Shown here: positions 23,241-24,853 of the stretch, piece by piece
How the letters are laid out: the number at the start of each line of letters is the position of its first letter
How positions within the stretch are numbered: the stretch's first letter is position 1
Source of the DNA: Verrucomicrobium sp. BvORR106
GTDB taxonomy: Bacteria > Verrucomicrobiota > Verrucomicrobiia > Verrucomicrobiales > Verrucomicrobiaceae
Length of the DNA: 33,862 nucleotides
Reading direction: 5' to 3'
Assembly (NCBI RefSeq): GCF_000739655.1
Contig: NZ_BATR01000156.1
Coordinates: forward strand, 1-33,862
Made by a program: the position numbers and the translations under genes
The notes under the pieces: model-generated
Told to the model about the DNA's origin: nothing
What the model saw: the letters and a program-made list of their open reading frames with translations, nothing else
Databases searched by the model: none

Positions 23241-23298
23241 CAGATGGTGGGCATCCGAAAAACCGATGAAGGGAAGTCAGGGGCGAGAGAATGCCTCT

Positions 23299-23405
23299 CG
23301 CGCCACTTTCAGGGCGCAATTACAAATATAATCGATGTACCCAGGCCCTGCGACCGCTTTGCGGCCTCCGTGCCTGGGCTGGGCTCTACCGACCCTTCGG
23401 GCCGG
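23299..23405 (+). repeat. REP-like three-hairpin module, copy F1
   Basis: Forward copy of the module linked to the RAYT gene. It has hairpin 1 GCGCC-ACTTTCAG-GGCGC, hairpin 2 with outer arms CCCAGGC and GCCTGGG around a CCGC/GCGG core, and hairpin 3 built on CCCTTCGGG. The same module stands right behind the transposase gene at 24745-24853, and in inverse orientation four times at 23511-24212. No transposase remnant is evident next to this copy. Confidence 0.85.
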
Positions 23406-23510
23406 GGCAACTGACGACAATAGGACATGCGAGCAATTGCTCACACTGCACCGGGGAACTCCTGAGCGCTCGAAGGTGACCACCTCGTGAAACTCCTCAG
23501 GATGGTGTTG

Positions 23511-24212
23511 GCGGCCCGAACGGCTTGCATACCTAAGCCCAGGTACGGAGGCCGCGAAGCGGTCGAAGGGCCTGGGTCCGGAACGTACTAAGCATTGCGC
23601 CCTGAAAGCGGCGCGAGAATCAAGCGTCAATCCCAGACGTACATCTCGCCATTCGGTCCCAAAAGCTTCGTTCCCCCCTCGGGAGCACACCCGATTGAAA
23701 CCTCCCCGCGGCCCGAAGGGCCTGCATAGCTCAGCCCAGGCACGAAGGCCGCGAAGCGGTCAAAGGGCCTGGGTCCGGAACGCACTAAGGATTGCGCTCT
23801 GAAGGCGGCGTGAGAATGAAGCCTCAATCCCAGACGTGTATCTCGCCATTCGGTCCCAAAAGCTTCAGGTCCCCACTTCGGGAACACACCCGATTGAAAC
23901 CTCCCGGCGGCCCGAAGGGCCTGCATAGCTCAGCCCAGGTACGCAGGCCGCGAAGCGGTCGAAGGGCCTGGGTTCGTGATGCACTGTGGATTGCGCCCTG
24001 AAAGCGGCGCGAGAGCTAGGCTTCTCTCCCAGACGTACTTCTCGCCACTCGGTCCCAAAAGCTTCAGGTCCCCAGCTCGGGAACGCACCCGATTGAAACC
24101 TCCCGGCGGCCCGAAGGGCTTGCATAACCCAGCCCAGGCACGAAGGCCGCGAAGCGGTCGAAGGGCCTGGGTATCGTTGCGCCTAATGCATTGCGCCCTG
24201 AAAGCGGCGCAC
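23511..24212 (-). repeat. Tandem array of four inverted REP-like modules (R1-R4)
   Basis: Four copies start at 23511, 23708, 23907 and 24106, i.e. with a period of 197-199 bp. Each has about 108 bp of module (GGCCC-GAA-GGGCC hairpin, CCCAGG/CCTGGG stem with GGCCGC-GAA-GCGGTC core, GGCGC-type hairpin). Between copies lie spacers of about 90 bp that are also repeated. On the minus strand each spacer ends in a sequence like GAATGGCGAGATACACGTC followed by TGGGATTGA, which aligns with the last codons and stop of the transposase gene (GAATGGGACGAGAAGTATGT, then CTGGGATTGA). So each unit equals a decayed gene 3' end plus module. All long minus-strand frames here come from the repeat and are not genes. 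Confidence 0.88.
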
Positions 24213-24282
24213 GAGGACGAACAACATCTCATGACGTGAAAACCACATGACAGACTTGGTTCCTGGAGCCAATAGTTTTTCG

Positions 24283-24735
24283 ATGCCACAGTCGTTGTCC
24301 AAGTTGTACATCCATTTGGTCTTCTCTACCAAAGGAAGGGAGAGAATCTTAAGCCGGAGTATCCAAGGGCCGCTGCATGCCTATCTTGGAGGCATCTTAC
24401 GAAATCACAATTGCGATCCCGTCGAGATCAATACCGAACCTGATCATGCCCACATTCTGCTTGTGCTGGCGAGAACCGAGGCTCTTAGCGATCTGGTAGC
24501 GAAGTTAAAGCAAGGTTCAACATTATGGCTCCGAGAGCAGCATCCATTGCTGCGGACGTTTCATTGGCAAAGCGGATACGGTGCGTTTTCCGTAAGTCAG
24601 TCAACTGTGCCCGACGTGGTCGCCTACATTCGCAATCAACAGGAGCACCACCGAGACAAGAGTTTTCAGGACGAATTCAGGGCGATGTTGAAGAAGTATG
24701 AGATCGAATGGGACGAGAAGTATGTCTGGGATTGA
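24283..24735 (+). CDS. REP-associated tyrosine transposase (RAYT, IS200/Y1_Tnp type)
   Basis: 150 residues from ATG 24283 (MPQSLSKLYIHLVFSTKGRE), the usual start of this family; an ATG at 24247 is in frame but adds unrelated residues. It is an HUH single-strand transposase: metal-binding H55-A-H57 in EPDHAHILL, the QSGYGAFSVSQS segment at 96-107, and the catalytic tyrosine Y114 with Q118 in VVAYIRNQQEHH. It ends YVWD, as many relatives do. It is expected to cut and join REP-type hairpins. Inverted copies of such a module flank it on both sides. Base composition is visibly less GC-rich than its neighbours, which suggests acquisition. The gene appears intact. Confidence 0.92.
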   Translation: MPQSLSKLYIHLVFSTKGRERILSRSIQGPLHAYLGGILRNHNCDPVEINTEPDHAHILLVLARTEALSDLVAKLKQGSTLWLREQHPLLRTFHWQSGYGAFSVSQSTVPDVVAYIRNQQEHHRDKSFQDEFRAMLKKYEIEWDEKYVWD

Positions 24736-24744
24736 TGATCGGTT

Positions 24745-24853
24745 CTCGCGCCACTTTCAGGGCGCAATCCAAAATGCACTCCAGTACCCAGGCCCTGCGA
24801 CCGCTTCGCGGCCTGCGTGCCTGGGCTGGGCTATGCAAACCCTTCGGGCCGCA
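24745..24853 (+). repeat. REP-like module copy F2, directly behind the RAYT gene
   Basis: Starts 9 bp after the transposase stop. It has hairpin 1 GCGCC/GGCGC, the CCCAGGC/GCCTGGG outer stem with CCGC-TTC-GCGG core, and the CCCTTCGGG hairpin. It is inverted with respect to R4 (24106-24212), so the gene is bracketed by inverted copies. Confidence 0.88.

Follow-up and report, generated by a model that had tools for sequence, protein, structure and literature searches.

Decayed copies of the tail of a transposase gene recur in three tandem repeat units beside that gene, and we confirm that they are real, local and rare. The gene lies in the window, a 33,862-nucleotide stretch of Verrucomicrobium sp. 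BvORR106 DNA that is one whole contig (C54) of an 8.69-Mb draft genome in 209 contigs. Taking the preferred explanation as a whole, we consider it reasonably probable that the island is a REPtron-like locus, with a Y1 transposase flanked by multi-hairpin modules of its own in inverted copies, that the tail-bearing units are by-products of a local rearrangement of the right end, and that dispersed copies arise separately.

The island is built from a ~109-bp module of three hairpins, which occurs in inverted copies on both sides of the gene (Table 1); these inverted flanking modules are 87% complementary over 105 nt. Four minus-strand modules (u1 to u4) follow one another at spacings of 197, 199 and 199, and TRF reports a period of 199 with 3.5 copies and 87% matches at 23510-24210, in agreement with the initial annotation, which had described four tandem units with a period of 197-199 bp. 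Over the full 199 nt of a unit, identity to the reference unit is 77% and 86%. Every module in the tandem units has the same orientation, the inverted (left-end) module being absent inside them, and the spacers are homologous to each other. The three hairpins appear in the consensus fold of eight module copies (six from the island, one from congener G001 and one from contig C131), where both partners have changed in only 1 of 19 pairs. Folded as single-stranded DNA, the right-end (RE) module is only mildly better than its shuffles (z -1.84; 12 of 200 as good).

Table 1. Features of the repeat island, in window coordinates
Feature	Position	Strand	Remarks
Outer module	23295..23404	+	Position matches the solo module of congener G001
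Module u1	23511..23620	-	Tandem array
Relic of gene 3' end before u1	23627..23673	-	Ends CTGGGATTGA
Module u2	23708..23817	-	Tandem array
Relic of gene 3' end before u2	23824..23866	-	Ends CTGGGATTGA
Module u3	23907..24016	-	Tandem array
Relic of gene 3' end before u3	24023..24065	-	CTGGGAGAGA; stop lost
Module u4	24106..24212	-	Between array and gene start; convincing relic absent beside u4
Y1/HUH transposase gene	24247..24735	+	162 aa; C-terminus ...EWDEKYVWD (stop); signature DHAH / WQ / YIRNQQEHH
Right-end (RE) three-hairpin module	24744..24852	+	Starts 9 nt after the stop codon

The predicted product covers almost the full length of the Pfam Y1_Tnp profile (E 6e-25) and passes NCBIfam transpos_IS200 (63.8 bits; cut-off 55). 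Solved transposases, ISHp608 included, match it among PDB sequences at E 7e-5 to 5e-8, and the E. coli TnpA_REP 4ER8 is absent from the eight PDB sequences that match at E ≤ 1. Among named genomes, the closest transposase relative is that of Brevifollis gellanilyticus (61% identity). Quentin et al. 2018 (PMC6006769), in the available portion, characterize TnpA_Y1 subclass 1.2 by the tyrosine motif Y---Q--HH, low copy number and the absence of REPs, with Cyanobacteria and Bacteroidetes as hosts in the table, and give Y---NP motifs for most class 2 subclasses. The window protein has Y---Q--HH, as do 123 of 127 related genes; the canonical RAYT motif Y[IV]xxNP occurs in 0 of these 127, the window protein included. 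WQ is present, and the HUH motif is DHAH, with A where the DH[IV]H of subclass 1.2 has I or V. By these signature motifs the protein appears to be subclass 1.2-like and, judged in the same way, is not a canonical RAYT. Hence the initial annotation, which had placed a RAYT gene between inverted three-hairpin modules, was right about the modules and, by these motifs, not about the class of the enzyme.

In a Blast alignment, the stretch that starts at -36 (counted from the stop) and ends at +117 or +123 is 80.5-83% identical to three copies upstream of the gene; the outer copy matches only from +9 and u4, beside the gene start, only from +13. We compared the three spacers (92, 92 and 90 nt) with the final 130 nt of the gene and the 8 nt that follow it, using 2000 dinucleotide shuffles per spacer. 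The alignment scores of 42, 42 and 51 lie above shuffle maxima of 32-37 (means 17.5-19.0), and 0 of 2000 shuffles reach the score of any spacer. What aligns is roughly the final 45 nt of the gene. The relics are in register with the module; 8 nt separate the stop from the first hairpin in each of the three relic spacers, as in the gene. Each of the three relics has a 2-bp deletion. That complete spacers end, directly before the module, in a decayed version of the last ~15 codons, and that a unit amounts to transposase 3' end plus module expanded in tandem, had been read from the sequence by the initial annotation, and both points are upheld by the alignments and the in-register relics. The ending it gave is that of two relics; the one before u3 departs from it.

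Only one half of each spacer is relic, the one that adjoins the next module at its first hairpin. The remaining (5') half matches the gene at chance level (384 to 1390 of 2000 shuffles as good), and a reading by eye of the whole spacer as ~30 decayed codons was given up because this half scores like shuffles. The far side of u1 is a weak candidate for its origin (scores of 20, 21 and 16, which 216, 125 and 986 of 2000 single-base shuffles reach). A further candidate relic beside u4, ACGTCATGAGATG, is unconvincing (p 0.036 against the gene and 0.469 against the relic).

How common are such units? Loci similar to the window protein gave 152 tblastn segments and, after 19 duplicates and 6 short segments were dropped, 127 distinct genes. 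A tail-capture filter, which required a copy to cover 15 nt or more of the coding end and 15 nt or more beyond it, was passed by 3 of the 127 (the window, L075 and L084). L084 was dropped from the clean count, its predicted stop lying inside a repeat and its conserved C-terminus missing. L091 fails the filter, as the aligned stretch ends at +12, and its tail units were verified by reading. Clean tail-bearing units among the 127 genes are thus found only in the window (L031), at L075 (Prevotellaceae) and at L091 (another Bacteroidetes), in trials that are not independent because the loci are largely Verrucomicrobiota and interrelated. The conserved 5' coding end is captured in 2 of 127 when the count is anchored on conserved coding sequence; a first count of 5 of 127 was discarded for its uncertain start codons. 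Captures of the tail and of the 5' end are both rare, as accidental capture would predict.

Other candidates were set aside. The repeats at L035 start at +17 after the stop, and an odd match at L090 sits upstream of a truncated gene. L092, L079, L080, L081, L087 and L089 (8-12 nt past the stop) and L182, L164 and L123 (6-8 nt) were not taken as relics. Separately, a transposase copy on contig C46 of G000 (L037/L038) lies in two overlapping pieces, one with an internal TAG, and looks disrupted, and on contig C144 of the same genome a long 8-bp tandem repeat, GCGTCGGT/GCGTGGAG, lies beside another such transposase gene (L036, 1093-1276).

More novel than the relic is the association of subclass 1.2-like genes with REP-type repeats. 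Of 119 genes with enough flanking sequence, 96 have an inverted match between the region within 300 bp upstream and the region within 200 bp downstream, compared with 20 of 237 pairs in a swapped control; many of the 96 belong to the window's own family and order, and L091 is among the 23 misses. As a rule the repeat arm starts after the stop codon, at a median of 26.5 nt (96 loci). Two words are clearly enriched: CAGGG stands in 66 of 96 downstream flanks, where 19.0 would be expected, and GGGCT in 76 of 96, where 26.6 would be. Support is only weak for TAGCC/GGCTA as a foot shared by the modules, a motif first suspected by eye: GGCTA occurs in 26 of 96 downstream flanks and in 32 of 96 upstream flanks (11.8 expected upstream), and 4 of the 27 downstream copies come after a stem arm, compared with 662 of 11520 positions overall.

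One sister transposase, on contig C123 (G000, L033), has at least 59 repeat matches, at least 53 of them outside its island, among the best 40 of 71 candidates. Outside the island they form at least 15 inverted pairs (30 of the at least 53 matches), 13 with an exact 23-nt gap; two of the pairs include a copy matched over 29 nt only. The 13 doublets fetched (dispersed copies L234-L246) have a similar middle, by eye. The architecture of this family is REPIN-like. On balance we lean, if only slightly, towards a joint reading in which subclass 1.2 transposases of Verrucomicrobiota, Planctomycetota, Bacteroidota and other phyla would be partners of their own multi-hairpin REP modules and REPIN-like doublets, and stub-bearing arrays would be rare local events, some of them internally deleted elements between full and miniature forms. 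In the titles and abstract openings of the open-access journal papers searched, no description of REPs with subclass 1.2 was found.

Units with a tail are confined to their loci, and in the families tested the dispersed repeats are unlinked to transposase sequence. In the window's own genome, a 75-nt query that joins the relic to the first hairpin has 14 matches at E ≤ 10; of these, the gene and the three spacers alone extend across the relic, and three matches of 15-19 nt (E 2-7) touch part of it. A module search of this genome agrees, placing the relic at the window locus only among the best 40 of 77 candidates, which hold at least one full-length copy of the same type elsewhere (contig C131, 76%) and diverged relatives. 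The first-hairpin pattern was located in 6 of 9 own-genome loci (none in L007, L025 or L027). The relic is absent at seven first-hairpin copies in six other places of the genome, one copy of the window type and six of the sister type, as it is upstream of two congener copies and of the outer copy; sequences beside the congeners' solo modules resemble it by eye and are not significant.

The C123 sister family was searched with a query that included the gene end, the stop ending at query position 74, and gave at least 58 matches with the gene included. Among the best 40 of 72 candidates, the 57 matches other than the gene all fall short of the coding region, with starts at position 83 or beyond. 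In the Prevotellaceae genome, the L075 tail occurs only in the gene and four adjoining units, and the three longest of the dispersed matches have their start 4 nt beyond the stop; the L091 genome has seven matches, every one at the L091 locus. As the tail is absent from the examined dispersed copies, the window array does not reveal how such repeats come about in general. The initial annotation had seen in the array a direct view of how REP-type repeats are born, and that claim is not borne out: wherever they were examined, module copies elsewhere are not linked to transposase sequence, an outcome that it had itself named as a refutation. The window's genome also contains a separate dispersed repeat of ~340 bp (L015-L030); many of its loci hold a REP-like core, CCCAGGGTCT...CCCCTGGGCTGGGCTC, preceded by an open-looking stretch, and no partner transposase was found for it.

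How might the array have formed? The window enzyme is a Y1 transposase, of a kind that processes single-stranded DNA, and may have had a part in the amplification. A stretch comprising the last ~45 nt of the gene, the RE module and ~40 nt of flank would have been copied and this right-end stretch then amplified in tandem; the spacers are homologous to each other, which places amplification after capture. Because the array faces away from the gene's 3' end, a further step must be added: the gene may later have been inverted by recombination between inverted modules, or a second, opposite copy may have lost its gene body. The relics would have no function and be decaying, and dispersed REP and REPIN copies would have a separate origin, from modules alone. 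By eye, RE has some diagnostic bases in common with u1-u4 and others with the outer copy; exchange between modules thus makes the order of events harder to read. Two further points count against this explanation: the 5' half of the spacer matches no source convincingly, and L075 and L091 favour internal deletion of whole elements, so that one process might underlie all three loci.

Internal deletion was the origin proposed by the initial annotation, in which each unit is a whole element reduced to left end, gene stub and right end, then expanded in tandem as a source of REP-type repeats. At L091 (4277-6016), three units consist of left end, ~45-nt transposase stub and right end. The ~299-bp tandem units at L075 (3733-4752 and 5448-6002) hold a 27-nt stub of the transposase end, identical in four units and the gene (by reading), between left-end-like and right-end-like parts. 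These units fit an internally deleted element of miniature form. In the window, however, the modules are all in one orientation and the units have no left end, which fits a right-end duplication better. The repeat-birth part is contradicted for the tested families by the stub-free dispersed copies of the own and Prevotellaceae genomes and by the confinement of the L091-genome matches to their locus. Taken as a whole we regard this model as unlikely; L075 and L091 show that internal deletion of an element can also yield stub-bearing units, and for these two loci the idea is right in kind.

Somewhat less likely again is gene conversion or template switching, in which RE recombined with the inverted upstream modules, the tract ran ~45 nt into the gene end and the tailed module was then amplified. 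The long, similar inverted modules around the gene and the mosaic look of RE are consistent with such exchange, but the tract would end in non-homologous DNA and the 5' half of the spacer would still require a separate source. In IS200/IS605 elements, a guide sequence is located 5' of the right-end hairpin, the position that a tail kept for function would take. Guide sequences are mentioned in the available text of PMC6006769. Retention of the tail as a functional part of the right end is nevertheless highly improbable, given that repeats of related genes as a rule start after the stop (median and loci as above), that the relics have the 2-bp deletion and one lost stop, and that the examined dispersed copies have no tail.

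A comparison of three genomes shows that the module at this site also occurs without the gene, which may have been lost in the congeners or gained in the window's genome. Two congeners (G001 and G003) have the same neighbours and lack the transposase gene. G001 has one full solo module (C126:371-479; 86% to RE) at the site of the outer module, and in G003 the module at the orthologous site (C1:5006650-5006760) is truncated. Tandem repeats beside inverted repeats, in a window that is a whole contig of a 209-contig draft, carry a risk of misassembly, but the 199-nt units are divergent enough to be placeable and both flanks are syntenic with the single-contig congener genome G003, so an artefactual order of the island has very little probability.

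Known systems share parts of this arrangement. Like REPtrons (RAYT-REP, class 2 TnpA_REP), the island has one small Y1 transposase gene framed by palindromic modules in inverted orientation, and the related C123 family of the same genome is dispersed in inverted pairs as REPINs are. It differs in the tyrosine motif of the window-group transposases and in its ~109-bp, three-hairpin modules, for which a constant GTAG-like foot was not established. Tandem arrays that include flanking sequence are known, according to the accessible part of PMC3116915. With TnpA_Y1 subclass 1.2 the window protein shares the Y---Q--HH, WQ and DHxH motifs and a length near 150 aa, whereas the portion of PMC6006769 at hand lists no REP for the subclass and most of the 1.2-like genes here have inverted repeats on both sides.

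TIRtrons (TIRYT), as presented in the available part of PMC3733652, are likewise tyrosine transposase genes with long inverted repeats, some of them self-complementary and some forming a repeated family. Figures of that paper mark flanking sequences that overlap the 5' or 3' end of the gene, which is prior art near the relic. Unlike the window protein, 20 of 26 TIRYT examples are assigned to subclass 2.1, with HTH domains, in the same portion of PMC6006769. IS200/IS605 elements and their miniature derivatives belong to the same HUH/Y1 superfamily, with ISHp608 among the structure matches, and the L075 and L091 units of left end, stub and right end look like miniature elements. The window differs from IS200/IS605 in that its ends are inverted copies of one module and in that other transposase genes of the same kind in its genome are at most 52% identical to the window gene, rather than near-identical IS copies.

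A repeat that carries a gene tail preserves, with its orientation, a record of how arrays build up next to these genes. The absence of the tail from the examined dispersed copies suggests two separate processes, one of spread and one of local amplification. If the wider association is true, a group of transposases distinct in sequence, from outside the studied class, would join the REP/REPIN systems. For tests, an amplified family (C123) and a confined one (that of the window) are available in the same genome.
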